Shown: piece by piece, positions 1,108 to 17,864 of the stretch
How the letters are laid out: each line of letters opens with the position of its first letter
Numbering within the stretch: position 1 is the stretch's first letter
Assembly (NCBI GenBank): GCA_022827225.1
Contig: JAJDTJ010000097.1
Span: forward strand, 1-64,000
Length of the DNA: 64,000 nucleotides
Direction of reading: 5' to 3'
Origin: Candidatus Poribacteria bacterium
Lineage (GTDB): Bacteria > Poribacteria > WGA-4E > WGA-3G
Notes under the pieces: model-generated
Database searches by the model: none
The model's input: the letters and a program-made list of their open reading frames with translations, nothing else
What the model was told of the DNA's origin: nothing
Position numbers and translations under genes: made by a program

Positions 1108-2132
1108 GGATCTTTGATCCTAAAACTTATCAGATAAGAAATAAGTGTTGGCTCATGTAAAAAGTAAAGGCAATTTTTTCATAGCTCCTTTTGAACTCTG
1201 GGTATAAATTTCACTATTGCACGCATTCTTGACATGAGCCATTGAAGTTTGACCGTTTATTCATTACTCAGACCTAAAATTACTAAAGTTTGGACACGAT
1301 TGTAAACTTATGCTGCCTTGTCAAAAAGCAGCGGTGTGAGGGGCAAAAGTGGCACGCTCGCCTCTAAACAAGGGATAATTTTTGTCCCTTCGTAAAGCTT
1401 GTTGCACAAGATTGATAGCCTAAAAAAACGCGGCAGCAGCAAAACACGACCGCTATCAACAGCAAATATCAACGCGGTTGTGTATAGAACTATAGTGAAT
1501 AAAATACTTAATTTTTGTAAAGTGGGGGGGGGGGGGTAATCTCTGTTAACTGACAGTTAGCACAGCAGGTTGTGGACGCGCAAGCGAAGTCACAGCGGTT
1601 CACCGTACCGCCGCATACACCCTCAATATGAGGGGCGGTGAGGATCGTTTTGGCAATGTTAAAATCGATAGGTCCGATCAGCATGTTTGTCACCCGATAT
1701 TCGGTTCTGGTTTCAAAAACCTGCGCGTATCGTTTTGTTCACGCGACATTCTAAACAGATTGGTTTTCAAACTATACAACTGTTTCACAAATCCGATTAG
1801 CTGCCACAGCGAAGTGCCACCGTTTATTCAGACCCCAAATTAGCAAAGTTAAGACGAGTTTGTTGCTAAGAGTTTCCTAAAATTATAGGACGACCATGGT
1901 TCCTCTAACCATTAACGCGTCCTATCCTCAATTGTTTGATAAAGTTTAACAAATACAGGAAAATTTGTCAAGAAAAATTAACAGTATTTGATAAAATGTA
2001 ACAAATATAGAAAGATTTGTCAAGAAAAATTAACTTTTTTTCTTTGACAGCCCCAAACAGATTCGGAAAGCGGTAATTTTCATCCTTTAAACCCCGTAAA
2101 TGTGCCAGAACAACGCGGAATGTTAACTTTAC
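1108..2132. other. gene-poor stretch with repeat debris and a G13 run
   Basis: I see no convincing gene here. Two imperfect direct copies of a sequence starting ACCGTTTATTCA lie at about 1253-1300 and 1820-1860 and may bound a decayed insertion. A run of 13 G residues sits at 1524-1536. The open frame 1508-1693 on the minus strand is Cys-rich (C..C...CC..C) and could be a transposase tail, but this is too weak to call. The sequence GAAGTGCCACCGTTT at 1811-1825 recurs at 19511-19525, where it abuts a truncated gene. Confidence 0.4.
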
Positions 2133-2627: not shown

Positions 2628-3064
2628 ATTCCAGTTACAACAGTCTTCCCATCGGGAGAAAACGCTACGGAGTTGATAATGTCTGTATGTCCTGAGCGTG
2701 TAACGATGTTTTCGCCCGTGATGACGTTCCACAGTTTCAAGTTTCCATCTTGATGTCCGCTTGCGATGACAGTAGGATCCGGTGAATACGCGATAGTGCC
2801 GATTGCGCTAATATGCTCTGCGATTAGATATCGTTCCTTCTCTTTACCAAGACGGACATCATAAATCCAAATCCCGATCGCACTTCCAACCGCAAGCTGG
2901 GTGCCTTCCGGTGAGAAAGCGATATTTCCAGTGAATCCACCTTTACCGAAGCGCATTGTCGCACTATCCGGTAAACCCCAAGTGTTGTAATCCTGAGCAT
3001 ACGCGTTTGGGAGCAAGAGTGCAAAAGTTAAAAACAGGGTGGTCATACCCGTTAGCTTACTCAT
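2513..3064 (-). pseudogene. WD40-repeat secreted protein, truncated by MITE
   Basis: This encodes a signal peptide (residues 1-23, FALLLPNAYA) followed by WD40 blades with typical GNIAFSPEGTQLAVG, TIAYSPDPTVIASG, NLKLWN and GHTDIINSVAFSPDGKTV motifs. WD40 identity ends after about 145 residues at the right end of the MITE (2627). The remaining codons and the stop come from the MITE. A complete propeller needs about seven blades and only two to three remain. The start overlaps the stop of the upstream lectin-like gene by 8 nt, so it was the last gene of that operon. Type: remnant of a periplasmic propeller protein. Confidence 0.7.
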
Positions 3065-4520
3065 CGGTCATCTCTTCCACTGCAGGTGTTTTAGAAACCA
3101 ACCCGTCCTTCTCTATAATTGCCTCTCGCGTCATTCTCCAGAAAGGGCTTCCGGGACCAACGGACTGCCATTCACCGTCTCTGAAAGTGAACACGACATA
3201 GTCTTTTTCTGTGTCTGGAAGTCTATCAGGAAAAATCGGTCGGACTGCCCAGTTGGTGTAGGTAACAGGTTCCCCACTATCCCACTGCCATTCGCCTTCC
3301 TTTTCCACGTCGGTAAGTCCGATCCATGAGGCGTGGCCTCTAAAAATGATCTGAAGCCAGTGCTGCTCGGCTTCGTCATTGATGGAGACGAGATGCGCGC
3401 CCTCTTCAATCGCCTTTTGTTGCGCATCGTGCCAATCGGCGCACTGAATTCTTTTGTATGCATGACCGTTCGCGGGGTTAATGACCCATACGCTTTTCGC
3501 TGGTTTCCTTGCCTGCGGCGGGACAGGCGGATCGGTTTTAACTTCAGCGGGGACCTCTATATCTCCAGGGGTTTCAATATCACCCGGAGACGGTTTAGCA
3601 GCAACGGGATTCCCATCAAGTGTTAGGACAAGTTCCTCCGGTTGTACACCGTCTTTAAGTAAAAAGGGCCCTGCTCCGGCAGAAAGTTCTTTTCCCGTAG
3701 AAGGTCCACTATATTTCACAGAAACCGTGTAAAACCCAGGTACATCCATGTACTCTGTAAAATAGCCGTCGTCATCGGTAAAGTAGTCCATGCTGTAGCT
3801 GCCGCCGCTTTGCGGGTTGAACTCATCGCGTTGCCGCATGTTGAGTCGTCCGTCGGCGTTGATAAGGGGGGTGCCATCGGCATAAACGATTCGCGCGTGA
3901 ATCCGCAGTCGCGATTTGACGGTGATTTTGACATTTTCGAGGGTTGTACCGGGCTCAAGGGCGAATGTGATCCCTTGAAAAAAGCCAGGCTCCTCCGCGT
4001 TATTGAAAACGATGACCTTTCCAATTTGGATAGAGAAGATCGTTTTATCCGGCTCAAGGGGACCGCGATGTATCAATTCCGGTGGAATCTGTTCTCCTTC
4101 CGGCATCTCCTCGAGATCGAACATCTCAGCCATATCCTGTGCGATGTCCGGAATCGCCTCTAATTGAATGAAACCGGGGTGGATACCGGTGACAGTAAAA
4201 TTACCATCCACATCGGTTCGCCCTGTAGATGGGTGTCGTGGCATACCGGGGAGATTCACGCCTTCAGGCGGTTCTTGACCCTCCAGTTGAAACTCACCCT
4301 CTGGTTGTAACTGACCCTCTTCAAGTTTTATAGGTTGAATAGCAAACGTGAACCCGGCAACAGCCTTACCTTCTAAATCGACAACTTTCCCTGACATGCC
4401 ACTCGGTGCTTGTGGATCCTGCTCTATGAGTACCTGCGCTGTTGTGACACCTATTGTAGCGAATAAAAGTGTGAGTGCTGCTAACACTATGCGTTTTTGT
4501 GGGGTGTAGATCCGATTCAT
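3057..4520 (-). CDS. secreted C-type-lectin-like protein with carboxypeptidase-regulatory domain
   Basis: This is a 487-residue protein with signal peptide (residues 1-28, cleavage after TTAQ). Residues of about 40-115 resemble the carboxypeptidase regulatory-like beta-sandwich (SGKVVDLEGKAVAG, DVDGNFTVTGI), and a second such module covers about 205-300 (YADGTPLINADG, DDDGYFTEYMDVPG). The C-terminal 130 residues form a C-type-lectin fold: WIGLTD, WQWDSGEPVTYTNW. The Ca-binding EPN triplet is EPV here, so carbohydrate binding is uncertain. It is a paralogue of the next gene upstream, 27 nt away, and both are probably cotranscribed with the truncated WD40 gene. A surface or periplasmic binding role is inferred. 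Confidence 0.75.
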   Translation of the reverse strand: MNRIYTPQKRIVLAALTLLFATIGVTTAQVLIEQDPQAPSGMSGKVVDLEGKAVAGFTFAIQPIKLEEGQLQPEGEFQLEGQEPPEGVNLPGMPRHPSTGRTDVDGNFTVTGIHPGFIQLEAIPDIAQDMAEMFDLEEMPEGEQIPPELIHRGPLEPDKTIFSIQIGKVIVFNNAEEPGFFQGITFALEPGTTLENVKITVKSRLRIHARIVYADGTPLINADGRLNMRQRDEFNPQSGGSYSMDYFTDDDGYFTEYMDVPGFYTVSVKYSGPSTGKELSAGAGPFLLKDGVQPEELVLTLDGNPVAAKPSPGDIETPGDIEVPAEVKTDPPVPPQARKPAKSVWVINPANGHAYKRIQCADWHDAQQKAIEEGAHLVSINDEAEQHWLQIIFRGHASWIGLTDVEKEGEWQWDSGEPVTYTNWAVRPIFPDRLPDTEKDYVVFTFRDGEWQSVGPGSPFWRMTREAIIEKDGLVSKTPAVEEMTDE

Positions 4521-4547
4521 CTCTGGGCTCCTTATGTGCTGCTGTGC

Positions 4548-5828
4548 TTAACGTTTTTCGGTGTCCTTGTTTGGCTCAGGGGCACCAATAATGAGATTTT
4601 CTTTTTCGAGAATTGCGCGTTCAGTTAGGCGTGTGAGTGGACTTCCGTGACGTGTGAGCTGCCATTTCTCTGTCAAACTGACGAGGACAGCATATCTCTG
4701 ACGCACGTCCTCGGTTTGAGCGGACTCGGTACTTTCGGCAGTCTCCTTTGGCGAGTTCCAATTTGTGTAAGTGATGGGTTCGCCGTTGTCCCATTGTTGC
4801 TCTGTTTCGTTTGCGTCGAGGGTAAGTCCGATCCAAAAATTTTCTCGTTTTCCAAAGACTGTGAGGATCCACTGCTGTTCTGCTTCATCGTTGATAGCGA
4901 GGAGGTGAGCATCTTCGGCGGCGGCTCGTTCTTGTGCAGCTTCACGGGTTTCACAAGGGATCATTTTATAGGCGTGTCGGTTGTCTGGATTGATTGCCCA
5001 TACGCCTTGGCGTTCCCGTTCTCGTGCAGCTTCAAAGCGTTCCCGATCGCGGACGTGAGGGACGACTTCTACCTTCTCCGGTTTAGGGGGTTGAGGTTCA
5101 GCCTCAAGCGTCAAGACGAGTCCCTCAAGCCGCTGACCATCTTCAAGTAAGATCTCCTCGGATTCTGCCGACTGGCCTTGGTAGCTCACGGTAACGGTGT
5201 AATAGGCAGCCGCATTCACGTATTCCGTAAAGTACCCGTCAGGATCAAGCGTTGTTGGACCGCTGCTGCCGCCGCCGCCCCCGTTCAAGCGTCGTCGGTC
5301 GAGGCTGAAATCAACCCGTGCGTTGCCAAGCGGCGTGCCATCGGCGGAAAGGACACGCCCGCGGATACGCATCCGAAGTCGGACGGTTATCTCTATGTCC
5401 TTAACATCAGCACCCTCTTCAATAGCGAAAGGAAATCCACCTCTCTGCCAGCGGTGCATCTGTGGATCGAGATGAAAAGTTGCGCCGTCGATTTTGATGC
5501 TTTGAAATTCGTATTCTGCTTCATGTTCAGGCATTAATACAAGTGTGTGGACTGCAGGCGAAGCGATGTCAGTAATTGAGAACGCGCCTGTTTCGTCTGT
5601 CTCGCTGGGTTGCGCGGGTGGGAACATAGGTTCAGGTCTGTGGTGCTGGTTTGGTGGCATGTCGCCTGCGAATGACGAGAAGCCTACGGTAACGTTAGAA
5701 ACAGGTTGCCCGTCTTCATCGATAACCTTTCCTGAAAAGCTTGCCGCTGCGCTCGGTAAAGCCGTCGAAACCAAAAGCGCAATACTCACAACACAAACGC
5801 CAAGGAATGTCCGGTAAGAACGTTTCAT
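4548..5828 (-). CDS. secreted C-type-lectin-like protein, paralogue
   Basis: This 426-residue protein has a signal peptide at 1-29 (STALPSAAA). The first regulatory-like beta-sandwich starts at about 30 (FSGKVIDEDGQPVSNVTVGF) and a second at about 150 (VLSADGTPLGNARVDF). The C-type-lectin domain covers about 280-410 (HAYKMIPCETREAAQERA, FWIGLTLDANETEQQWDNG, GEPITYTNW). A low-complexity Gly-rich GGGGGS patch lies in the second sandwich. GGAGG stands 11 nt before the ATG. It is the first gene of a three-gene minus-strand operon with its paralogue and the WD40 remnant. Confidence 0.75.
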   Translation of the reverse strand: MKRSYRTFLGVCVVSIALLVSTALPSAAASFSGKVIDEDGQPVSNVTVGFSSFAGDMPPNQHHRPEPMFPPAQPSETDETGAFSITDIASPAVHTLVLMPEHEAEYEFQSIKIDGATFHLDPQMHRWQRGGFPFAIEEGADVKDIEITVRLRMRIRGRVLSADGTPLGNARVDFSLDRRRLNGGGGGSSGPTTLDPDGYFTEYVNAAAYYTVTVSYQGQSAESEEILLEDGQRLEGLVLTLEAEPQPPKPEKVEVVPHVRDRERFEAARERERQGVWAINPDNRHAYKMIPCETREAAQERAAAEDAHLLAINDEAEQQWILTVFGKRENFWIGLTLDANETEQQWDNGEPITYTNWNSPKETAESTESAQTEDVRQRYAVLVSLTEKWQLTRHGSPLTRLTERAILEKENLIIGAPEPNKDTEKR

Positions 5829-7246: not shown

Positions 7247-7636
7247 CTAAGGCGGTGTTGTCGGGAGTTGTCTGACGACTGCCCCCGAAAACGTTGACGG
7301 TGCCAACGTTTCGACCGCCGCCTCGGCATCCGGGAAGCATTGAAACACTTTCACCAGCCGCGTGAGCAGAGTCAAGTTCCTGATCCGTTTTGAAACATTG
7401 ATGAGTCCGATCTCTGTCTCATGACGGTGTGCAATAACGTGTGCGTTGACGAGCATCCCCAACGCCGAAGAATCGAGTTTATGAACATCGGCGAAATCAA
7501 TGAGCAGAGCCGGTGTGTTGGTATCATCGATCCACAAGCCGAGTCTGTCGCGGAATTCCGAGACCGTTTTTCCCGTAATTTTCCCGTGCGGATGCAAAAT
7601 CGGGATACCGTTTTGTAGTGTGAGTGTCATTTCCAT
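7247..7636 (-). CDS. STAS-domain anti-sigma-factor antagonist
   Basis: This is a 129-residue single STAS domain. The start at 7636 is chosen because AAGGAG lies 7 nt upstream; the frame is open to 7666. Characteristic features are the N-terminal strand (LTLQNGIPILHPHGKITG), the central LIDFADVHKLDSSALGML, where the Ser in DSSALG is the family's phosphorylatable residue, and a following helix. In the SpoIIAA/RsbV family this serine is phosphorylated by an anti-sigma kinase, and the unphosphorylated form frees the sigma factor. No kinase is visible here, but a sigma factor is encoded at 12325-12975 and the two share an upstream motif, so a partner-switching role is inferred. A Pro-rich tail follows the domain. 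Confidence 0.8.
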   Translation of the reverse strand: MEMTLTLQNGIPILHPHGKITGKTVSEFRDRLGLWIDDTNTPALLIDFADVHKLDSSALGMLVNAHVIAHRHETEIGLINVSKRIRNLTLLTRLVKVFQCFPDAEAAVETLAPSTFSGAVVRQLPTTPP

Positions 7637-7689: not shown

Positions 7690-7719
7690 ATTATATGCGC
7701 CTCGCTGAGAAAACTTTAG
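7690..7719 (-). promoter_or_regulatory. cluster promoter motif upstream of STAS gene
   Basis: On the minus strand this 30-bp box begins CTAAAGTTTTC and ends GCATATAAT. It recurs with the same length at 8852-8881, 12161-12190, 12288-12317 and, more diverged, at 13046-13075 before the sigma gene. The TATAAT-like end would place transcription start about 45 nt before the STAS start codon. Confidence 0.55.
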
Positions 7720-7726
7720 CATTTTT

Positions 7727-8749
7727 TTAGAAAGTTCCTTCTGGCGACTTTTCGGCTTTTATCTCTGCCCATTGCGTGGTGATTTTCGCGCGGGCGGAGA
7801 CGGCTCGGCTGTTCTGCGGTGTCCAATCCATATCCGAGTTGCTACCCGGATGCTGCTCGGTGAGATTCGTGATCTGCCCATTGCTGAGCCGATACTTATA
7901 GATGTTGAAAATGTGTGGGGTGTTGCCCAACCCGTTCGGCACAGCCGCGAAAAGGATCGCATCGCCATCATCTGCCCAACAGGCGGCACCAATCCACCAT
8001 TTTCTGGGTATATCTAAGACTTTCAGATCCCGACGGGTCTTATCGACGATAAGGATTGCGTTGGCAACACGCCCTTGACCGGGTGCCAACTCCCACTCTC
8101 TATAGAGGATCCATTTTCCATCGGGTGACCACCGCGGCTCAATACTCAATAGCAGTCCGCCGAAAACCGCCTGCCGGGGTCTGCGAAGCAAGGGACGTTG
8201 CCGTCGTCCAGTGGCATCCATAATATAAATGTCGCGCCCTGTCTCGGGTGTCCTCAATTCGTAGGCAAACGCTTTGCCATCGGGCGACCAACTCACGGAT
8301 GTCGCGGACGTGATATCTGTGAGTTTCCGGACGTTGCGACTCGCCAACTCCATGACGAAGATTTCGGAGATCGCCGGTGCCGCACGCTCGGAAATAAAGG
8401 CGATCTGTTTGCCGTCGGGCGACCAGGAGGGCGAGGCGTCAAGTTTTGGATGTTCGGTGAGATTGCGTTGCCGCGAACCATCGGCATTCATGACAAAGAC
8501 ATCATATTGTGCCCATGGCTTCGGATCGGTTTCTATGTCCATCATAAAGGCGATCTGTCTACCATCGGGCGACCATCTTGGATTGGCAATCTTAAAGAAG
8601 GTATCTGTGAGTCTGCGGACATCGAAACCGTCATCGTTCATGATATAAATACTTCTGTTGCCATCCCGATTCGAGATGAAAGTGATGTCGGCGATAGCCG
8701 GGATTGAAACCAGCAAGAGCAAACAGATGTGCATCGAAAGTTTACGCAT
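7727..8749 (-). CDS. TolB-like beta-propeller (PD40) secreted protein
   Basis: This 340-residue protein has a signal peptide (1-20, LLLLVSIPAIA) followed by at least four PD40 blades, each with the WSPDG signature (PRWSPDGRQIAFM, PSWSPDGKQIAFI, VSWSPDGKAFAYE, PRWSPDGKWILYR), plus a degenerate blade (ACWADDGDAILFA). Blades alternate with IYIMNDDG, VFVMNADGS and IYIMDATG strands typical of TolB C-terminal repeats. It lacks the TolB N-terminal domain and there are no Tol/Pal genes nearby, so it is not TolB itself. It is a periplasmic propeller, probably protein- or ligand-binding. Part of the sigma-linked minus-strand cluster. Confidence 0.8.
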   Translation of the reverse strand: MRKLSMHICLLLLVSIPAIADITFISNRDGNRSIYIMNDDGFDVRRLTDTFFKIANPRWSPDGRQIAFMMDIETDPKPWAQYDVFVMNADGSRQRNLTEHPKLDASPSWSPDGKQIAFISERAAPAISEIFVMELASRNVRKLTDITSATSVSWSPDGKAFAYELRTPETGRDIYIMDATGRRQRPLLRRPRQAVFGGLLLSIEPRWSPDGKWILYREWELAPGQGRVANAILIVDKTRRDLKVLDIPRKWWIGAACWADDGDAILFAAVPNGLGNTPHIFNIYKYRLSNGQITNLTEQHPGSNSDMDWTPQNSRAVSARAKITTQWAEIKAEKSPEGTF

Positions 8750-8809
8750 GGTGTTTCTCCTGTATCAGTCGGTTGCACGGATTCTTTTCGTTGATGCCAA
8801 AATGTAAAG

Positions 8810-8847
8810 GGAAGTTCATTGCTGCGTTTTGCCAGAAATGAACTTCC
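8810..8847 (-). terminator. conserved stem-loop, terminator-like
   Basis: GGAAGTTCATT (8810-8820) pairs perfectly with AATGAACTTCC (8837-8847) around a 16-nt loop, and on the minus strand is followed by CTTTACATTTT. The same structure recurs at 12243-12286 with two compensated base-pair changes and a conserved loop. It may terminate the upstream transcript, or lie in the leader of the TolB-like gene if the adjacent promoter motif is active. Confidence 0.6.
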
Positions 8848-8851
8848 GTTT

Positions 8852-8881
8852 ATGATATGCGTCTCGCTGTGAAAACTTTAC
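8852..8881 (-). promoter_or_regulatory. cluster promoter motif upstream of TolB-like gene
   Basis: Second copy of the 30-bp box; on the minus strand it begins GTAAAGTTTTC and ends GCATATCAT. It lies just after the small ORF 8889-8978 and about 100 nt before the TolB-like start codon, with the conserved stem-loop in between. Confidence 0.5.
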
Positions 8882-8888
8882 AACTTTT

Positions 8889-8978
8889 TTAGCGAGCGTA
8901 GACCGATGCGACTTCAGACGGCTCACCTCCTAACCAGAGCCATCTTTGGAATACTTCACGGGGTATACCTCTAAGCAT
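8889..8978 (-). CDS. 29-residue ORF sharing the sigma-factor C-terminal tail
   Basis: The ATG (8978-8976) overlaps the TAG of the preceding lipoprotein-like gene by a few bases. The C-terminal part reads LGGEPSEVASVYAR and matches the last residues of the sigma factor (IGGEPSEAVLVSSR) at DNA level. The homology continues past both stops through the 30-bp box and stem-loop. Either this is the duplicated 3' end of a lost sigma paralogue, or a small coupled peptide. No function can be given. Confidence 0.35.
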   Translation of the reverse strand: MLRGIPREVFQRWLWLGGEPSEVASVYAR

Positions 8979-9885
8979 CGTTGACCCAAGCGATAAACAT
9001 TGCTTCGTCAGCAGTATACCACAGGAGAAGTCCGGTCAGATCTGGCTCTTGAAGTGCCAGCAGAATGAGTCCTTCCTCGACACCGTATGCGTTAAAAAAG
9101 CCGCGTATCTTTTTTTTATCTCTCTCACTGTCCTCTTGAATAAAATCGGTATATCGTGCTTCAAAGGCATTGTAAGCGTTTTCGCCTTGCCCGTTGTCAA
9201 AGATCCATTTCTCCAACGTCTTCTCGGTGAACGCATGGTGGGGCGTGTCTCTGAAAGGACCATCGATGAGATGTTGGGGTTGTTGTATTTTCGGTATGTT
9301 CAGTGGGTCGCCGGGGTTCCTGGCGCAAAATATGGATAAGCCCTGATAGAGCATTAAAGCCCCTTTACCTTCTAAAATGCGCTGATGCAAATAGGCGAAA
9401 TCCTCTGCCTGTGGGTTCTGAAGAAAACCGTCAAACAAGGGACGGTAGGTTTCAGTAGGTATGGGCATCATTGTCCTTCTCCAAAACGCATCGAGCGTCT
9501 GAAATTCCGGCTCCCTTGTGAAAGTTTCTCTGAGATACGTTTTGTAGATTTCAGAGTCGATGAGGTCTCGGAGAATGCGGAAGTTATCTTCCAAAACGGT
9601 GCCTTCATAGCGGTGTCGAAGTGCTAAGAGTTCCGCTTTTTTTTGGGTGTGTATCGGTTCAGGGGGCGTGGGCGGAATGATCTCACTTTCGGAATAGGTT
9701 TTTACCTGACATTCGGGAGCATCTCTGTGAAGATGCGTCAACGTTAGCAGCTCCGCCTCTCGTCTGAGCTCGGTTTCGGTTTTTTCAGGTATTAAGGGAT
9801 CCTGCGTTTTTTCCGAACAACTTGAAGAAAAGAAAAAACTGATAACCGAAACGACGATAAAGCCCGTGATTTGAAAATATCTCAT
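8971..9885 (-). CDS. putative lipoprotein of unknown function
   Basis: This 304-residue protein has a hydrophobic N terminus ending FFFSSSC (Cys23), consistent with a lipoprotein signal. The mature chain is acidic, largely helical and rich in Glu, Arg and Pro; two similar segments (REAELLTLTHLHRD at about 42 and KKAELLALRHRYEG at about 83) look like an internal duplication. I recognise no family. Its ATG overlaps the stop of the 392-residue gene by 4 nt, so the pair is translationally coupled and likely acts together in the envelope. Confidence 0.6.
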   Translation of the reverse strand: MRYFQITGFIVVSVISFFFSSSCSEKTQDPLIPEKTETELRREAELLTLTHLHRDAPECQVKTYSESEIIPPTPPEPIHTQKKAELLALRHRYEGTVLEDNFRILRDLIDSEIYKTYLRETFTREPEFQTLDAFWRRTMMPIPTETYRPLFDGFLQNPQAEDFAYLHQRILEGKGALMLYQGLSIFCARNPGDPLNIPKIQQPQHLIDGPFRDTPHHAFTEKTLEKWIFDNGQGENAYNAFEARYTDFIQEDSERDKKKIRGFFNAYGVEEGLILLALQEPDLTGLLLWYTADEAMFIAWVNDA

Positions 9886-11060
9886 TTTGTCGCTCCCATT
9901 TGGAAAGTTCCATTGCGGTCGTAGTGCTTCTGAAGTAACTCGGCGAGTTGCGAATCTTCGGCTGCAAGTCTGCGGAGCCCCTCTTGAGGGTCGTCGCTAT
10001 TTACGATGTCCAAGGCATACTGGAGTCGCTCTGGTGGCAGTGACTCGGTAAGGAGACGTTCTATTTGTTTTTCAGTAAAGTTGTATTCTTGAAATTCAGC
10101 CCCCCCGAGTGTTAATAATTTTTCAAATTCAATGAAGTCCGCATCGTTGAGTGACTCCAAGAATTGATCAAATTCGTCGATGTCTCGCCGAGGTTGATAT
10201 ACTTCGTTTTGTTGTGTTTCGAGAGGTATTTCTTCGGTTTTCAAGGCATCTTTTCGGGACGAGACTTCTCTGAGTCGCTGCATATCCTCTGGGGCAGGTG
10301 TCGATGTTTCGGATACATTCTCAAGCGTGGGAGGCGGTGGCGTTTTTGCAAGTCGTTGCCCATTATCATCAATATAGATGATTTCATATCCCGTTGGGTG
10401 GATGCCTTGGTAAATGAGCGCAGTTTCTTCGGCTTCATCAAGCCTTTCGCCAAACAAGACTGTGCCTCTGCCTTTTCTTTTGACATAAACGCGACCGGGT
10501 GCAGTTGGAAGGAATGTCTGTTTCCCCGGTCCCGTGAAAAATCCGCCATCGACATCGGGATCGGCTTCTATAGCCGCACGGAACTGTTCATATTCCCAAA
10601 TCTTCCTGTCAATGAAGGCTTTCTTAAATGTTTCCCAATCTGTGGTCGGCGGCAGTCCAAATATATCGGAGGTCCACATTTCGGGCTGGCTTTCAAGGTC
10701 AACTAACGCCTGTCGCGCAGCCATATACCCAGAATAATCGTCATGATTTTCGATGGCAATCCCCATCTCAAAGAGCATTTGAAGCCATTCTCGCTGTGGA
10801 TATTTTTCATCGACATCGGGGTCTGCGGCGATCCATGAGAACGACGATAGCAGTGCGTCAACGTTTTGCGGACCGGTGTAGGGTTCTGCGGGGTTCCCCC
10901 CCATTTTTAAGTGTCTTTGCTCTGGACGTGTGTTTCTATTCGCCTCAAGAGTAGGAAATCCGTCTTGCGGTATTTCAGGGTGTGTCTGAAAAAAATAGAG
11001 ACAGACACATCCAATCCCCAAAGAAATCAGAATTGTCAAAAATATCACCTGACGTGTCAT
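9882..11060 (-). CDS. single-pass membrane protein of unknown function
   Basis: This 392-residue protein has one N-terminal membrane segment (residues of about 4-24, VIFLTILISLGIGCVCLYFF) and a large exported part. The exported part is Pro/Glu-rich in the middle (TPPPPTLENVSETSTPAPED) and helical at the C terminus (QIERLLTESLPPERLQYALD). AGGAGG lies before the start. Segments with a DPDVDE/DPDVDG motif occur twice. No family is recognised. Coupled by a 4-nt overlap to the following lipoprotein-like gene. Confidence 0.6.
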   Translation of the reverse strand: MTRQVIFLTILISLGIGCVCLYFFQTHPEIPQDGFPTLEANRNTRPEQRHLKMGGNPAEPYTGPQNVDALLSSFSWIAADPDVDEKYPQREWLQMLFEMGIAIENHDDYSGYMAARQALVDLESQPEMWTSDIFGLPPTTDWETFKKAFIDRKIWEYEQFRAAIEADPDVDGGFFTGPGKQTFLPTAPGRVYVKRKGRGTVLFGERLDEAEETALIYQGIHPTGYEIIYIDDNGQRLAKTPPPPTLENVSETSTPAPEDMQRLREVSSRKDALKTEEIPLETQQNEVYQPRRDIDEFDQFLESLNDADFIEFEKLLTLGGAEFQEYNFTEKQIERLLTESLPPERLQYALDIVNSDDPQEGLRRLAAEDSQLAELLQKHYDRNGTFQMGATK

Positions 11061-11146
11061 AAAAACCTCCTTCCACTGTGCAAAAGCCGGTGCTATAAAA
11101 ATGAAGTATCATATCGCCCATTTTCATAGCACCGACGCGGATGTGA

Positions 11147-11575
11147 CTAATAAAACCTCCCAGAACCGCGTCCAGAATAGCTTTGATCATCCCGGACGTG
11201 TGTAGACACAGAAAGAGACCGACCGCGTTTAAACCGGTGTTCGACGGTTCCATCGGCATGGCGGTAACCATAGACTTTCGCCCACATACTTCCGGATTCT
11301 GAGAGCGGTTCTCTGTCTTCTACAGTAATCGAAACCGATGCCCATCCACTATAAGCGTGTATGGGCGTATTTTGAAGATCGTAAACGTCGGGTACTGCCG
11401 CCGACCCGAAATTATACCAATTGTGATCGTCATCATTATCACTCAATTCCGAGTTGAGGTATAAGAATGTACCTGTGCTCACATAAACGCCAGAAATGCC
11501 ATGATCGGCAAAAAAAACGAGTGTGAGAAGTGAAAGAATGATGAATGGGGTCATCATCGATTTTCGCCTTTTCAT
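11147..11575 (-). CDS. small secreted protein, paralogue of 11668-12033
   Basis: About 142 residues. I chose the ATG at 11575 because GGAG stands 6 nt before it; the frame opens at 11590. A signal peptide (MTPFIILSLLTLVFFADHGISG) precedes a beta-rich domain. The stretch WASVSITVEDREPLSESG, then MWAKVYGYRHADGTVEHRFK, aligns with SVWIDDESLEDRGPIWVRVY in the neighbouring gene, so the two are diverged tandem duplicates. The C terminus is Ser/Arg/Gly-rich. No known family. Likely an exported beta-sandwich controlled by the cluster sigma factor. Confidence 0.55.
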   Translation of the reverse strand: MKRRKSMMTPFIILSLLTLVFFADHGISGVYVSTGTFLYLNSELSDNDDDHNWYNFGSAAVPDVYDLQNTPIHAYSGWASVSITVEDREPLSESGSMWAKVYGYRHADGTVEHRFKRGRSLSVSTHVRDDQSYSGRGSGRFY

Positions 11576-11611
11576 AATTTGCTCCATCATCTATAGAGAT
11601 AAAGAACTGAG

Positions 11612-11650
11612 GACTTAGGCACCTCTCCGCCTTTCCAATTTGCCTAAGTC
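11612..11650 (-). terminator. stem-loop between the two small secreted genes
   Basis: GACTTAGGCA (11612-11621) and TGCCTAAGTC (11641-11650) form a perfect 10-bp inverted repeat with a 19-nt loop; on the minus strand a T-rich CTCAGTTCTTTATC follows. It could act as an attenuator between the two genes. The arms differ by one base from the 10-bp core of the MITE termini (GACTTACGCA), so it might instead be a deletion derivative. Confidence 0.5.
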
Positions 11651-11667
11651 TTCAAGGACTCGGTTTC

Positions 11668-12033
11668 TTAAATCCAACCCGACGCTATGGCACCTTTTGT
11701 TGCTATCTCTGATCCCGACATTCGAGCACGCCGTTCTCGGACGGTATAACGCCTGTCTTCTCCAGAAAAATAGACGCGAACCCAAATCGGGCCCCTATCC
11801 TCTAACGATTCGTCATCAATCCAGACCGAGCAATTGCCGTACCCGACGTAGTAGCCGACGGGGGTCCTGACATTGAGTCGAACGTCATTCTTGGCAATCG
11901 CTTCAGTGTTTGTTACGCGGTGGTAGTTGTAACAGTAAACACCATCATCGTCTGCCTCGGCAATGTATAATAGGCAACCGACGATTAGGATAACAACAAA
12001 AGATGCAATCCGGGGGATGTTTTGGTGTCTCAT
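11668..12033 (-). CDS. small secreted protein of unknown function
   Basis: About 121 residues starting at 12033 (AAGGAG 7 nt upstream; an alternative ATG at 12039 sits too close to that site). A signal peptide (IASFVVILIVGCLLYIAEA) is followed by a small beta-rich domain with three Cys. The motif SVWIDDESLEDRG, then IWVRVY, is shared with the gene at 11147-11575. No known family. It lies closest to the sigma gene, behind two copies of the 30-bp box. Confidence 0.55.
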   Translation of the reverse strand: MRHQNIPRIASFVVILIVGCLLYIAEADDDGVYCYNYHRVTNTEAIAKNDVRLNVRTPVGYYVGYGNCSVWIDDESLEDRGPIWVRVYFSGEDRRYTVRERRARMSGSEIATKGAIASGWI

Positions 12034-12160
12034 TGTCATTCTCCTTCCTTATCTGTGAATTCTTGAAAGGATCTGTATATTCTCACATAACGAAAAACCC
12101 AACGTTATCGCCACAATGAAAAGACAGATCGCTTTTCGGTGATGCTTTTCGGTGATATGG

Positions 12161-12190
12161 ATAATATGCGCCTCGCTGAGAAAACTTTAG
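12161..12190 (-). promoter_or_regulatory. cluster promoter motif, proximal to small secreted gene
   Basis: Third copy of the 30-bp box; on the minus strand it begins CTAAAGTTTTC and ends GCATATTAT. It lies about 125 nt before the start at 12033. The leader contains a short tandem repeat of ATCACCGAAAAGC. Confidence 0.55.
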
Positions 12191-12242
12191 TACTTTTTTT
12201 CAAACACAGTTGAACACAGGGTCAACCGGCTGGAAATAAAAC

Positions 12243-12286
12243 AAGGGAGATTCATCAATGCGTCTTGCCACGAATGAATCTCCCTT
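12243..12286 (-). terminator. conserved stem-loop after the sigma gene
   Basis: AAGGGAGATTCAT (12243-12255) pairs perfectly over 13 bp with 12274-12286, with an 18-nt loop; on the minus strand TGTTTTATTT follows, as in an intrinsic terminator. Loop core TGCGTYTTGCCA and overall design match 8810-8847. Confidence 0.65.
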
Positions 12287-12287
12287 A

Positions 12288-12317
12288 ATGATATGCGTCT
12301 CGATGCGAAAACTTTAC
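12288..12317 (-). promoter_or_regulatory. cluster promoter motif just after the sigma gene
   Basis: Fourth copy of the 30-bp box; on the minus strand it begins GTAAAGTTTTC and ends GCATATCAT. It lies 8 nt after the sigma stop and before the stem-loop at 12243-12286. Confidence 0.5.
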
Positions 12318-12324
12318 GCTCTTT

Positions 12325-12975
12325 TTATCGAGAAGAAACCAATACGGCTTCAGACGGCTCACCTCCTATTTTTGCGTGTGCTTTTTTCAGTTTTCCGAGT
12401 GCGCTTTTCAGCAACTGGCTCACCCGTCCTTCAGAGACAGACAGCCGTTTTGCGATGTCTCGACTCGAAGCGTCGTTGAAAAACTTCTCCTCGATGACAC
12501 ACCGTTCTTTTTCAGAAAGCCTATCGAGCATCTGCGGCAAAAAAGACCGGAGTTCTTCAACTTCGATCTTTTCACAGACGTCATCTTCAAGGCTTTTCGC
12601 GGCGCAGGCTTCCGCCGTCAACACTGCGAGCAAAGGATTTGGATGGGTATCAGGTTCTGCGGGTGGATCCGAGACATACGGCGTATACTTCAACTCTTTG
12701 CGCCGTTGGGACCAGAGCCGTCCACAGACACGCGATTTCATAAACGTTATGAAACTTGCACCGCTTTCATGCTCCGGATCGTATTTCGGTTCATCTTCAA
12801 GAATCGTGAGATAGGCGATTTGACGGAAATCATCGCGCATGCCGACCAAACGTGGATGATCACATGTGGCACACCGTGCACACTGGTTGACGGATGTTTC
12901 CGCCGAAAGCGGGTTGTTCGGTTCGATATAGAACGGACATTTTGCTGAATAATGAGGACCCCTGTCGTTGAACAT
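12325..12975 (-). CDS. atypical sigma-70-family factor with Cys-rich N terminus
   Basis: This 216-residue protein starts at 12975 (AAGGAG 8 nt upstream). Residues 43-95 form a region-2-like segment (MRDDFRQIAYLTILEDEPKYD, with FITFMKSRVCGRLWSQRR). Residues of about 140-205 are a clear region 4 with helix-turn-helix: LSEKERCVIEEKFF, then SSRDIAKRLSVSEGRVSQLL. Unlike standard ECF factors it has an N-terminal cluster C13, C32, C35, C38, H40 (QCARCATCDH), which could bind zinc or sense redox state. No anti-sigma gene is adjacent. A diverged copy of the cluster box lies before it, so autoregulation is likely. Its C-terminal tail is duplicated at 8889-8978. Confidence 0.75.
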   Translation of the reverse strand: MFNDRGPHYSAKCPFYIEPNNPLSAETSVNQCARCATCDHPRLVGMRDDFRQIAYLTILEDEPKYDPEHESGASFITFMKSRVCGRLWSQRRKELKYTPYVSDPPAEPDTHPNPLLAVLTAEACAAKSLEDDVCEKIEVEELRSFLPQMLDRLSEKERCVIEEKFFNDASSRDIAKRLSVSEGRVSQLLKSALGKLKKAHAKIGGEPSEAVLVSSR

Positions 12976-13045
12976 AAGTGATCTCCTTTCAAGGGTAGAT
13001 CGATGACAGAAACTATTTTTCAACACAAACCTAAGTAACGTTAGT

Positions 13046-13075
13046 ACTATATACGTTTCAGAAAAAAAAGTTTAG
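13046..13075 (-). promoter_or_regulatory. diverged cluster motif upstream of sigma gene
   Basis: On the minus strand this reads CTAAACTTTT at one end and ACGTATATAGT at the other, exactly 30 bp apart as in the four boxes downstream, although the flanks are unrelated. It would start transcription about 65 nt before the sigma start codon. Confidence 0.45.
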
Positions 13076-13277
13076 TTTTTTTTCTCGTCGGGGTCATTGT
13101 TTGATGCAGGGGCATTTAGCTTACACATTCACTTTATAGCTGTGTATAGTCTCTTCGGTAGGAGCGAGTGTTTTTGCTTGGGTGTTTCTTCGCGCTCGCG
13201 ATCTTAAAAAAAAACGTTCACATCTGTAAACGAAAACCCAAGTCAAAACCGAAAACTAAATCGTCCTGATTTTCGAC

Positions 13278-13342: not shown

Positions 13343-15610
13343 GTGAAAAACGACCCAACAGACTTCCTCCGCATCGGAGCGCAAAAAGGCTATATTGAAT
13401 TCCTCAATGAACGGACAACAATTCGTTATATCGCACCCGACAAAAAATATCGATTTACCGACCCCGAAGAACAGGTCCGTGCAAGATTTTATGTCGAATT
13501 AATCGAGCATTTTCAATACTCTCAAAACCGAATAGATTTAGAGGTAACTGTCCCACGCAGGACACCTTCTGACCTCGCCGACATCGTCGTTTTCCGAGAC
13601 GATGACAAGAAAGATCCTTTCATTGTGGTTGAGTGCAAAAAGGTGGAAACTTCTGAGGCAGAATTCGATCAGGCGATTGAACAGGCTTTTGGAAACTGTA
13701 ACTCTTTGGGTGGACATTACACTGTTGTCGTTGCAGGAAATACGCGTAGATCCTTCGATGTCAAAAACTATAAACCGCGTGAACGGACAGAAAATATCAT
13801 CGCCGATCCGCCGATAGGATACGGCAAAGTCGAAGAATGGCGATATCTAAAAGGGATTGAGCGTTCGGAACTCTCCGTTATCGAAAGGAGCGACCTCATT
13901 CGTGTCCTTGAGAAATGCCACCAAACGCTCTGGCAAGGCGGCAAATTCGCACCTACACAAGCATTTGATGAACTCGCCAAAATCCTTTTCATTAAAATCC
14001 GGGATGAAAAGAAATCACGATTAAAAGGTAAGCCTTATGATTTTCAGATTAAGACGCATGAAAACGCTGAATCTGTTGCGAAGCGGATTAACGCACTCTA
14101 TCAAGACGCAAAAGCACAAGACCCAGAAGTGTTCACGGAGAATATTGAAATTGATGCAAACAGGCTGTTTTCTGTCGTCAATCATCTGCAGGGGATTAGC
14201 CTCAACCAGACCGATTTGGACGTGAAAGGCGTTGCCTTTGAACGGTTCTTAGGCAATTTTTTTAAGGGCGAAACCGGACAGTTTTTCACGCCACGCGAAG
14301 TCGTTGAGTTTATGGTTAATATGGTTACGCCGCACCATGAAGAACTCATCCTCGATCCTGCCTGCGGTTCCGGCGGTTTTCTGCTGCATGCCATGGATTA
14401 CATCCGAAAACAGGCATCAGACTACTACGACAAAGAAAGTCGAGAACATTATCTTCATTGGCACGATTTCGCTGAAAAGCGACTCTTTGGCATCGAAGTC
14501 AATGACTCTATTGCCCGCGTCGCAAAGATGAATATGATTATCCATGATGACGGGCATAGCAATGTCATCAGCAATGATGCACTCGTCGGTTTTGATACGC
14601 TCCGCGACCAACACAGCAGTTTTGAAAAAGATAAATTTGATGTAATCCTTACGAACCCACCTTTCGGCGCAGACATCAAAAAGACCGAATTACCTTATCT
14701 TGAAAACTATGAACTTGGCAAAGGCAAAACTTCTCGAAAGACTGAAATTTTGTTTCTTGAACGCTGTTTCGACTTTCTCAAATGGGAGACAGGAAAACTC
14801 GCTATTATTCTACCGGATGGAATTTTGACGAATTCCTCACTGCAAGATGTCCGCGATTACATTGAACGGCATTTCAAAATCCGCGCCGTTGTCTCACTCC
14901 CACAGATCGCTTTCTCGCATTACGGTGCCGGTGTTAAAACGTCCATTCTGTTCCTCCAAAAGTTATCGAAACAGGAATATGAACGCTATCAAGCCGCTAT
15001 CAATCAGATTACCAAAAAGAACGAGGCGATCTATGTCCCCCGGATTGAAGCGCTTGAAGATGAACGAAAGTCTATCGTCGCAAAAGGCTCTCCAGCACAA
15101 GTTGATTTAACAGAAACTTATAGACAGCAATTCATGACTATTTTGGACAGTATTGATGCCTTAAATCAGAAACTCGGCAAAACGCCATCAAAAACGGTTC
15201 AAAGACTCAGTGCCTTTTTCTTCCCAGAAATTGAGTCCACACTCACCACAGAATTTGAATTGTTTGACGCGAAAGCTGCCCGCGTGGAACTCAAGGCGCA
15301 GACAAACAAACTGAACGCGCTGGAGAAGGAATATAAAGCGGCATTCAAAGCAGCAGCCGATCCGGAATGGGAAAGCGAAATCAAGGCAGGATACAAGGAG
15401 CAGATTGACGTTGTAAAAGAGGAATGGGAAGATAAGAACACAGAGGACATCCGCGAGTGGGTTCGGGAAAACGCCAATCATCCGATCTTCATGGCAATTG
15501 CTGAGCGTATTGGCTACGACGCAACCGGACGAAAAGACGATGTTAACGATCTCAACACGATCTGTGAAGAATATCACAAGTTCATTGAGAACCCGGATTT
15601 TTTTCCGTAA
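13343..15610 (+). CDS. restriction-modification protein: HsdR_N-type nuclease domain + N6-adenine methylase
   Basis: This 755-residue protein starts with GTG. Residues 1-150 resemble the N-terminal domain of type I R subunits and contain a PD-(D/E)XK-type nuclease core: D80 in LADIVVF, then E97-C-K99 in IVVECKK. From about 170 it is a HsdM-type methylase: helical N domain, FFKGETGQFFTPREVVEFM, SAM motif I LDPACGSGGF near residue 340, and catalytic NPPF near residue 440. The C-terminal region is coiled-coil rich. It ends at a T7 run, after which the specificity part continues in the -1 frame. No separate HsdR motor is present, so the arrangement resembles a one-polypeptide R-M-S (type IIG/IIC-like) enzyme rather than type I. 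Confidence 0.85.
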   Translation: MKNDPTDFLRIGAQKGYIEFLNERTTIRYIAPDKKYRFTDPEEQVRARFYVELIEHFQYSQNRIDLEVTVPRRTPSDLADIVVFRDDDKKDPFIVVECKKVETSEAEFDQAIEQAFGNCNSLGGHYTVVVAGNTRRSFDVKNYKPRERTENIIADPPIGYGKVEEWRYLKGIERSELSVIERSDLIRVLEKCHQTLWQGGKFAPTQAFDELAKILFIKIRDEKKSRLKGKPYDFQIKTHENAESVAKRINALYQDAKAQDPEVFTENIEIDANRLFSVVNHLQGISLNQTDLDVKGVAFERFLGNFFKGETGQFFTPREVVEFMVNMVTPHHEELILDPACGSGGFLLHAMDYIRKQASDYYDKESREHYLHWHDFAEKRLFGIEVNDSIARVAKMNMIIHDDGHSNVISNDALVGFDTLRDQHSSFEKDKFDVILTNPPFGADIKKTELPYLENYELGKGKTSRKTEILFLERCFDFLKWETGKLAIILPDGILTNSSLQDVRDYIERHFKIRAVVSLPQIAFSHYGAGVKTSILFLQKLSKQEYERYQAAINQITKKNEAIYVPRIEALEDERKSIVAKGSPAQVDLTETYRQQFMTILDSIDALNQKLGKTPSKTVQRLSAFFFPEIESTLTTEFELFDAKAARVELKAQTNKLNALEKEYKAAFKAAADPEWESEIKAGYKEQIDVVKEEWEDKNTEDIREWVRENANHPIFMAIAERIGYDATGRKDDVNDLNTICEEYHKFIENPDFFP
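15598..15604 (+). other. T7 slippery heptamer at the M/S junction
   Basis: The last M codons read GAT TTT TTT CCG TAA, so T TTT TTT is in the exact phase of a -1 slippery heptamer. Shifting -1 here joins the methylase to the specificity frame without a stop. A one-base length change of the homopolymer would do the same. Confidence 0.65.
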
Positions 15611-17046
15611 GCCCTGATAGGGAAAATCAAATTTTCCTCACCTATCGGGGCGAAATAGTCAACAAGCGGATCGATGCCTACTATTACCAACCTAAATTCA
15701 AAATCGTTGATAAGATACTGGAAAATGCTCAATTTGATGTTGTCAATTTAGGTGACTTGATAAGTGACATCGCCAGTGGATCCACGCCAAAGGTTGATGA
15801 AGATTACTATACGGATTCGTCTGGTATTCCGTTTTTGAGAGTCCAAAATGTTACGGACGAAGGAATTGATTTGAACGATGTGAAATTTATCAAGAGAGAC
15901 GTTCATAACGGCATGCTCAAGCGTTCGCAACTTAAAAAGGACGATCTGGCGTTTACAATAACCGGTAGAATCGGAAGCGTCGCTGTTGTTCCGGATAACT
16001 TTGAGGGAAATATAAATCAGCATTCAGTTCGATTCCAACTGAAAACCCAAATTGCGAACATCGCTATTAACCCGCGTTACGTGGCTATCTTTCTTAACTC
16101 GGCCCTGGGGCAATCTTTGGCACTTCGAGAGGTAACGGGTGGAACCCGTCCCGCACTCGATTATAAGGCTCTGTATTCCCTAAAGACTATCCTTCCACCT
16201 ACCAGCATCCAAAACCATATTGTCAGCATTATGAGATCTGCATATGCACAGAAACAGCAAAAAAAATATGAAGCAGACACGCTTCTGGATTCAATTGATG
16301 ATTATGTCCTGAGAGAATTGGGAATAGAGATGCCAGCAGTTGAGGAAAAAAAGTGCTTTGTAGTTTATGCCGGTGAAACAACTGGTCAAAGAGTTGACTC
16401 ACATTTTCATCAACCTTACTTTAAGAAACTCTACAGTGCTATAAATGACTATAGTCAGATATTTTCTTTGAAAAATTTAGTGAGTGAATTAGATTACGGT
16501 ATTATGCCTACACAGGATTATGCGGATTCGGAGGATGCTGGTGTTCCGATGATAAGAGTTACCAATCTTCTATCGGACGGAAATATTGATATGTCTGATG
16601 TTAAGTACATTCCATTTGATACTCCAAGATTAAATTTGAAGCGCGTCAAAACTAATGATATTCTGATGGTTCAATGTGGAAGTACTACGGGCAAAATAGC
16701 ACTCGTTCCTAAGGATTTTGAAGATTACACTTTCGGATCTTTCTCCTTTGTCATAAGAGGAAAAAAAGAGATTATAAACCAATACTATCTGTTTGCCATT
16801 CTATCCAACCGTTTAATTCAGGAGCAAATTAAACATACTTGGAATGTTGTTACAGTGCGTCCAAATACCTCAAAACCCAATATTGAAAATCTTTTGATTC
16901 CGGTTCCCTTCTTTAAGATTCAAGATCAAATTGCTAATGAAGTAATGAGACGACGATCCGAAGCCGCAAAACTTAGACAAGAAGCCGATGCTATTGTGGA
17001 ACAGGCGAAAGAGAGAGTTGAGCGGATTTTGTTAGCAGAGGTATAG
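15604..17046 (+). CDS. specificity (S) region of the R-M enzyme, lacking its own start codon
   Basis: The frame is open from 15589. Recognisable S-type sequence begins well before the first usable start (TTG at 15757): KRIDAYYYQPKFKIVDKI then VVNLGDLISDIASGSTPK. There are two target-recognition domains, each starting LxxxxxYGxxP or ASGSTPK and containing GIPFLRVQNV or GVPMIRVTNL. They are separated by a conserved helix (QKKYEADTLLDSIDDYVL) and closed by a second (EAAKLRQEADAIVEQAKER). Between 15589 and 15757 there is no ATG, GTG or TTG in frame. With the preceding gene it would make a protein of roughly 1230 residues, the usual size of fused R-M-S enzymes. Confidence 0.8.
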   Translation, partial: SVSPDRENQIFLTYRGEIVNKRIDAYYYQPKFKIVDKILENAQFDVVNLGDLISDIASGSTPKVDEDYYTDSSGIPFLRVQNVTDEGIDLNDVKFIKRDVHNGMLKRSQLKKDDLAFTITGRIGSVAVVPDNFEGNINQHSVRFQLKTQIANIAINPRYVAIFLNSALGQSLALREVTGGTRPALDYKALYSLKTILPPTSIQNHIVSIMRSAYAQKQQKKYEADTLLDSIDDYVLRELGIEMPAVEEKKCFVVYAGETTGQRVDSHFHQPYFKKLYSAINDYSQIFSLKNLVSELDYGIMPTQDYADSEDAGVPMIRVTNLLSDGNIDMSDVKYIPFDTPRLNLKRVKTNDILMVQCGSTTGKIALVPKDFEDYTFGSFSFVIRGKKEIINQYYLFAILSNRLIQEQIKHTWNVVTVRPNTSKPNIENLLIPVPFFKIQDQIANEVMRRRSEAAKLRQEADAIVEQAKERVERILLAEV

Positions 17047-17070
17047 GGCTCAATCAGGTCTGTCTGATGT

Positions 17071-17571
17071 GTGCAGCACGGACAGCCGGTCAAACAGTTT
17101 ACCAACTCAAAGAAAGTTTACTTGAGGGTCGTGATTGAGATGGTGCAGGAGACGGACACGGTGCCGCCGTATCTGTATCTGTTAGACAATGAAATTACGA
17201 TCCCGACGGGGAGTTTCAGGGAGTATCAGTTTCGGTATAAGCTTGGGAATACGGCAGCGACGGCGTTTGATTTGGTGTGGTTTGCGACGCTGTTGGATGA
17301 GAATTTGATGGTTCGGCAATTGATGGATACGGATAGGCTGCCGCGTGCAACATTCATACCGCCGATACCGAACCTCAGTGGTGCGGCGGATGTCTATCAG
17401 AACGGTGTGTTGCGGTTGTATCCTTCGGCACATGAGGCACCTTACACGTCGGCGGTGGGATCGTTGTGTATGGTGCAGGTGTTGACGGTGGAAGGTGATC
17501 CGAAATCAAACTTTGTGTGTCCAATTCAGTCTCAGTGGCATCAGCATTATCCAACGTGGGAAATCAGGTAA
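17071..17571 (+). CDS. hypothetical protein
   Basis: 166 residues from a GTG at 17071; an internal ATG at 17140 is an equally good start. The sequence is soluble with no signal peptide (REYQFRYKLGNTAATAFDLV, LPRATFIPPIPNL) and ends QSQWHQHYPTWEIR. No family recognised. It follows the specificity region by 24 nt on the same strand and could be cotranscribed with it, but its codon use is more GC-rich. Confidence 0.5.
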   Translation: MQHGQPVKQFTNSKKVYLRVVIEMVQETDTVPPYLYLLDNEITIPTGSFREYQFRYKLGNTAATAFDLVWFATLLDENLMVRQLMDTDRLPRATFIPPIPNLSGAADVYQNGVLRLYPSAHEAPYTSAVGSLCMVQVLTVEGDPKSNFVCPIQSQWHQHYPTWEIR

Positions 17572-17576
17572 GGGGG

Positions 17577-17864
17577 CTAGTCATCTCTTATTGCTTTTCC
17601 GAGTTCTCGTACTCTATCAAGTGTGAATTTCCATAACGTTTTGGGAATTAATCTGAAAAGAACTTGCCATACACGGGGGATAGCCCAAAAGATTGCTTTT
17701 AGTATGAAATATAAAACGATGATTGAAGGGATGGCAATCATTAGGCCGGTAAGTGGATTTTCCCGATTTAACAAAGACGCGACAATGGCAAGTCCGATAT
17801 AGCAGTAAAGAATCCAAAAAAGAATTTTCCGAAAAAGAGTTTTTTGACTTGTGGATAGTTTCAT
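17577..17864 (-). CDS. small two-helix membrane protein
   Basis: 95 residues, start supported by AAGGA 7-8 nt upstream. Two hydrophobic helices (ILFWILYCYIGLAIVASLL and LMIAIPSIIVLYFILKAIF) are flanked by basic residues, ending in a basic amphipathic tail. No family recognised. It converges with the 166-residue gene, with only 5 nt between their stops. Confidence 0.6.
   Translation of the reverse strand: MKLSTSQKTLFRKILFWILYCYIGLAIVASLLNRENPLTGLMIAIPSIIVLYFILKAIFWAIPRVWQVLFRLIPKTLWKFTLDRVRELGKAIRDD

Follow-up and report, generated by a model that had tools for sequence, protein, structure and literature searches.

A conserved promoter-like box predicted to autoregulate a sigma28-related sigma factor in Candidatus Poribacteria

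A 30-nt box recurs five times around a sigma-factor gene in the window studied here, a stretch of 64,000 nucleotides. We propose, with a probability of about 0.85, that the sigma factor encoded at 12325-12975, most likely a phylum-restricted mini-sigma28, would use this box as its cognate promoter and thereby regulate its own gene. Such autoregulation is the best reading because the box recurs before homologous sigma genes at the same spacing, amid flanks that are not conserved. Sequence comparisons thus support an autoregulated alternative sigma factor with a hybrid promoter, part sigma28 and part housekeeping; from them we infer that this sigma factor recognizes the box. The papers found on Poribacteria contain no treatment of their sigma factors or promoters. 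Since the promoter was deduced from conservation alone, the regulon of an uncultured sponge symbiont becomes readable.

Box copies in the window and in the genome

The five copies claimed in the original prediction are all present at their places on the minus strand. Each measures 30 nt from the first C/G through the final T. Four are similar and read (C/G)TAAAGTTTTC-N9-CGCATATnAT, and the fifth, at 13046-13075 before the sigma gene, is a diverged copy, CTAAACTTTTTTTTCTGAAACGTATATAGT. Table 1 lists the boxes with the other features of the cluster. Each box had also been described as standing before a cluster gene, which holds for those at 7690, 8852 and 12161 but not for that at 12288. This box begins 8 nt past the sigma stop codon and is followed by a hairpin rather than directly by a gene, with the 12161 box 127 nt further on.

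Table 1 Features of the sigma-factor cluster in the window
Feature	Position	Strand	Basis or remark
STAS-domain protein, anti-sigma-factor-antagonist type, DSSALG motif	7247-7636	-	Pfam STAS 1.5e-14
Box, STAS gene, 53 nt leader	7690-7719	-	Sequence search
Exported TolB-like PD40 beta-propeller	7727-8749	-	Pfam PD40 6.9e-31
Stem-loop directly after the 8852 box, homologous to 12243-12286	8805-8851	-	Inverted repeat I1; fold -19.9 kcal/mol
Box, TolB-like gene, about 100 nt leader	8852-8881	-	Sequence search
3' remnant of a second, lost sigma gene (GGEPSEVASVYAR*)	8889-8932	-	Translation and alignment
Lipoprotein-like protein, conserved in the G005 cluster, no Pfam match	8971-9885	-	Cross-genome comparison
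Membrane-anchored protein, conserved in the G005 and G052 clusters, no Pfam match	9882-11060	-	Cross-genome comparison
Small exported protein, distant paralog of the 11668-12039 product	11147-11590	-	phmmer 1.6e-5 between the two
Small exported protein, first of a four-gene block	11668-12039	-	Block comparison with G005
Box, small secreted protein gene 11668-12039, about 120 nt leader	12161-12190	-	Sequence search
Stem-loop (AAGGGAGATTCAT...ATGAATCTCCCTT, loop TGGCAARACGCA) starting 1-2 nt after the -10 of the 12288 box	12243-12286	-	RNA fold -24.8 kcal/mol
Box directly behind the sigma stop codon, then hairpin	12288-12317	-	Same layout in C16, G018 (two loci) and G005
Sigma factor, 216 aa: N-terminal cysteine motif C13-C32-x2-C35, sigma2-like region, linker, FliA/WhiG-type sigma4	12325-12975	-	Pfam, TIGRFAM/NCBIfam, PDB match
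Predicted autoregulatory sigma-gene promoter: A-tract, -35 CTAAAC, 17-bp spacer, -10 TATAGT, 70 nt leader	13046-13083	-	Cross-genome conservation

The genome searched is a Candidatus Poribacteria MAG of 5.62 Mb (89% complete). The pattern TAAAGTTTTN10CGCATATNAT has six exact matches in it; the window contains four of them and contig C16 the other two, which adjoin a second, paralogous sigma gene 82% identical to that of the window. A diverged copy, with 3 mismatches to the pattern, precedes both sigma genes; other matches with 3 mismatches are no more frequent in the genome than in a backwards control. Genome-wide, the box therefore amounts to six exact and two diverged copies, found only in these two paralogous sigma clusters. 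An origin of the box as an interspersed repeat was rejected, since the copies in this genome occur at sigma loci only. The boxes sit upstream of genes, usually with a leader of 30-200 nt, as had been anticipated for a genome search. The wider envelope regulon anticipated along with this did not appear: matches are confined to sigma loci, and the regulon is mainly a local cluster rather than a genome-wide envelope regulon.

The 8852 and 12288 boxes lie within a 126-nt repeat that also holds the hairpin and the last codons of the sigma gene, and the 7690 and 12161 boxes lie within a 59-nt repeat. The four copies are thus two duplicated pairs and not four independent instances, so that independent support has to come from other genomes. 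That duplication accounts for some of the similarity had been foreseen, and the two repeats do explain the likeness within each pair. The sigma remnant at 8889-8932, whose C-terminus is identical to that of the G018a sigma factor, indicates that a sigma gene formerly preceded the 8852 box, as one still precedes the 12288 box. In another genome, a sigma gene truncated to 100 aa (L122, G010:C77, about 1494-1957, minus strand) retains both its upstream box and a box behind it, the latter now serving a secreted-protein gene.

Conservation upstream of homologous sigma genes

All 21 relatives of the sigma factor in the named genome collection belong to Candidatus Poribacteria. For footprinting, we used 34 homologous sigma genes with their flanks, drawn from two families of the order and sharing at least about 45% identity. 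Most of them are preceded by a conserved box, A6-8-N2-CTAAA(G/C)-n-TTTT-N13-TATnnT, in which the distance from TAAASn to TATnnT is always 17 bp. Information averages about 1.1-1.5 bits across the A-tract, the -35 and the -10, and falls to 0.1-0.2 bits outside the box. A matrix from which the clade being scored had been left out found a box within 400 nt upstream of 26 of the 31 sigma genes that have enough upstream sequence; the other five have none directly upstream, and some of these have one farther up or divergent. This recurrence at one spacing, in two families and amid unconserved flanks, agrees with the original view that spacing conservation would reflect an autoregulated promoter.

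The degenerate pattern gave about 52 matches in 73 genomes of the order, against 0 for its backwards control, and the matrix of the conserved promoter gave 48 matches above score 18 in 33 loci (relatives and own genome), against 0 in reversed sequence. A box is present in 19 of 24 genomes with the sigma gene and in 5 of 49 without it (p=7e-9). In these five genomes no sigma gene was detected, and two or three of the matches lie at contig ends. Sigma genes do not carry the box in general, as three paralogues of greater distance in this genome (30-38% identity) lack it; at least two of them have TTGACT-like promoters. These three lie near TolB-like genes (C138 and C77) or a STAS gene (C31), at L029 7771-8902, L030 1251-2343 and L031 9492-9843.

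The duplicated pairs in the window and the second sigma remnant could also mean that the repeats are mere leftovers of a sigma cassette that was recently duplicated in place, or of a mobile interspersed repeat, and that they regulate nothing. However, the box is kept in other genera and families amid unrelated flanks, it is also found divergently oriented upstream of STAS, TolB-like and secreted-protein genes, and it is absent from the rest of the genome. Judged on sequence, cross-genome conservation already largely refutes such an origin, which we consider extremely improbable.

The sigma factor, its predicted promoter and the cluster genes

The general sigma-70 model TIGR02937 matches the protein over residues 47-199, covering sigma2 and sigma4 (8e-17; 61.3 bits, cut-off 42.9), and matches all 16 members of the family tested. 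Pfam Sigma70_r4 is found at 1.6e-12. The FliA_WhiG model TIGR02479 aligns with region 4 only (7e-17); its 61.8 bits stay far below the family cut-off of 189.6. WhiG is the best PDB match (7lq4, 4e-12) and also the best match by fold search. Because the predicted structure is only fair (pLDDT 76, pTM 0.44), whole-chain fold matches were used as support only. The recognition helix reads EGRVSQL, compared with EGRISQI and ESRVSQL in WhiG/FliA. Pfam Sigma70_r3 is found in only one of 16 members, at E 0.057, and about 45 residues separate sigma2 from sigma4. C13, C32, H69 and C84 are invariant among the homologues and C35 nearly so, a pattern that suggests a metal or redox site. No FliA/WhiG gene above the family cut-off was found in this genome, and no flagellin above the family cut-off in the genus.

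Another locus (L123, G000:C72:17000-36900) shows a different arrangement. ORFs 9475-12600 and 14791-17793 encode an N-terminal ECF-like sigma factor (sigma2 and sigma4) fused to BNR/sortilin-type beta-propellers. Such fusions are many, of about 1000 aa each with several close together, and about 90 region-4 matches occur genome-wide.

In the proposed mechanism, RNA polymerase carrying this sigma factor would bind the -35 element CTAAA(G/C)nTTTT through the FliA/WhiG-type region 4, region 2 would bind TATnAT as the -10, 17 bp downstream, and the upstream A-tract would help polymerase binding. The holoenzyme would then transcribe the gene of its own sigma factor, in a positive feedback, as well as the cluster genes for secreted proteins, the TolB-like propeller and the STAS protein. 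Through partner switching with an anti-sigma kinase whose gene lies outside the cluster (candidates on C74 and C31), the STAS protein would probably act back on the activity of the sigma factor.

In 775 kb of related DNA, TAAAG was seen 16 times as the -35 pentamer 17 bp before TATAAT, against 0.56 expected, an enrichment by choice since the loci were chosen for the sigma factor. At the same distance, the other clearly enriched pentamers were housekeeping-like TTGAC and its variant TTGAT, seen 10 and 8 times against 0.69 and 1.05 expected. As both types are enriched at one distance, the sigma factor would differ from the housekeeping factor chiefly in -35 recognition. The box shares its -10 and its spacing with the TTGAC-type promoters of the same genomes, so that a housekeeping polymerase with a separate activator bound to the -35 region, on TAAAGTTTT, could leave the same footprint; the box would then be a housekeeping-type promoter (TATnAT at 17 bp) and the sigma gene one of the activator's targets. 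Against this, the spacing is fixed and a sigma28-type -35 suits a FliA-type region 4. Moreover, the sigma factor is the recurrent regulatory gene at these loci, box presence tracks it, and no other shared DNA-binding gene was found when neighbours were compared by selected queries. We therefore hold an activator to be unlikely and retain recognition by the sigma factor.

STAS genes lie near about 15 of the 34 homologous sigma genes, and those with a box of their own are found in the window and, divergently, at two G047 loci. TolB-like PD40 propellers follow boxes in the window, in G053 (divergently), in G067 and in G068. Other box-preceded genes encode short secreted proteins and members of a single-pass membrane protein family. 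In G005, the four-gene block 8971-12039 is found collinear behind the sigma gene and the box. Concerning partner switching, a STAS protein with a phosphorylatable serine is encoded near the sigma gene, and the operon lacks an RsbW/SpoIIAB-type kinase. HATPase (PF13581) matches occur only on C74, C31 and C53 and none in the cluster; with no such kinase near the sigma gene, uncharacterised membrane proteins of the cluster could serve as anti-sigma factors.

Three side observations concern the neighbouring proteins. The product of 7727-8749 and 12 other proteins of related loci, exported and other, end in a shared motif, K-L-x-T-x-W-(G/A)-x-(I/L)-K, which may be a tail for sorting or attachment. 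At 3057-5828 (minus strand), two neighbouring genes encode exported paralogues that combine carboxypeptidase-regulatory-like with C-type-lectin domains. The genes at 13343-17046 (plus strand), which lie upstream of the sigma promoter and point away from it, read like a type I restriction-modification methylase and its specificity subunit.

The hairpin is restricted to one clade, where it follows only boxes placed behind a sigma gene, now or formerly. It is absent after the boxes at 7690, 12161 and 13046 as well as in other clades, and an Rfam search at the hairpins returned no match. In six copies it starts at about the expected transcription start, with a stem kept through compensatory changes and a conserved loop. 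We infer that it is a terminator of the sigma mRNA or a short RNA. These same features would fit a box that, together with the hairpin, acts mainly as the promoter of a short structured RNA and not of the downstream genes. This is rather doubtful, given that the hairpin is limited to the behind-sigma boxes of one clade and that a plain terminator of the sigma mRNA fits equally well.

Comparison with known sigma systems

Like ECF (group 4) factors, this sigma factor has sigma2 and sigma4 only, and its regulon is small, local and, as predicted here, autoregulated, with envelope genes. It differs in its region 4, which is nearer to FliA/WhiG, and no anti-sigma membrane protein was recognised in the cluster. 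The typical AAC -35 of ECF promoters is missing from the box.

The Bacillus sigmaB and sigmaF systems, which use partner switching (rsbV-rsbW-sigB), share with the poribacterial cluster a STAS antagonist gene beside an alternative sigma gene. There, as is proposed here, the sigma operon is transcribed from a promoter of its own sigma factor. The poribacterial cluster differs in having no HATPase anti-sigma kinase, and the promoter sequence is different.

Streptomyces WhiG, which is under RsiG/c-di-GMP control, is the best match in sequence and fold, with the recognition helix EGRISQ. The poribacterial factor differs from it by its N-terminal cysteine motif and its other targets.

The sigma28 (FliA) promoter consensus of E. 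coli is TAAAGTTT-n11-GCCGATAA (PMC2859248). The -35 of the box, TAAAGTTTT/TAAACTTTT, matches the published -35 TAAAGTTT (PMC2859248), at almost the same distance from the -10. In contrast, the -10 is TATnnT, mostly TATnAT, and not GCCGATAA. Region 4 most resembles that of FliA/WhiG, yet sigma3 is missing and the score is far under the FliA/WhiG cut-off. Among sigma28 factors, reading of the GCC part of the -10 is attributed to sigma3. A housekeeping-like -10, with the difference placed in the -35, fits the loss of sigma3. One may speculate further, with more doubt than confidence, that the protein stands for a sigma class restricted to the phylum, a mini-sigma28 in which the GCC part of the -10 went with sigma3 while the flagellar -35 stayed, without a detected flagellin. 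Such a factor would sense a signal directly via its N-terminal cysteine cluster (C13, C32 and C35 with C84/H69) and autoregulate, and the box behind its gene would serve it as the promoter of a small hairpin RNA. With the -35 reader kept, sigma3 lost and the -10 in a housekeeping-like form, the poribacterial system offers a natural test of how promoter reading is split between sigma3 and sigma4 in sigma28-type factors.
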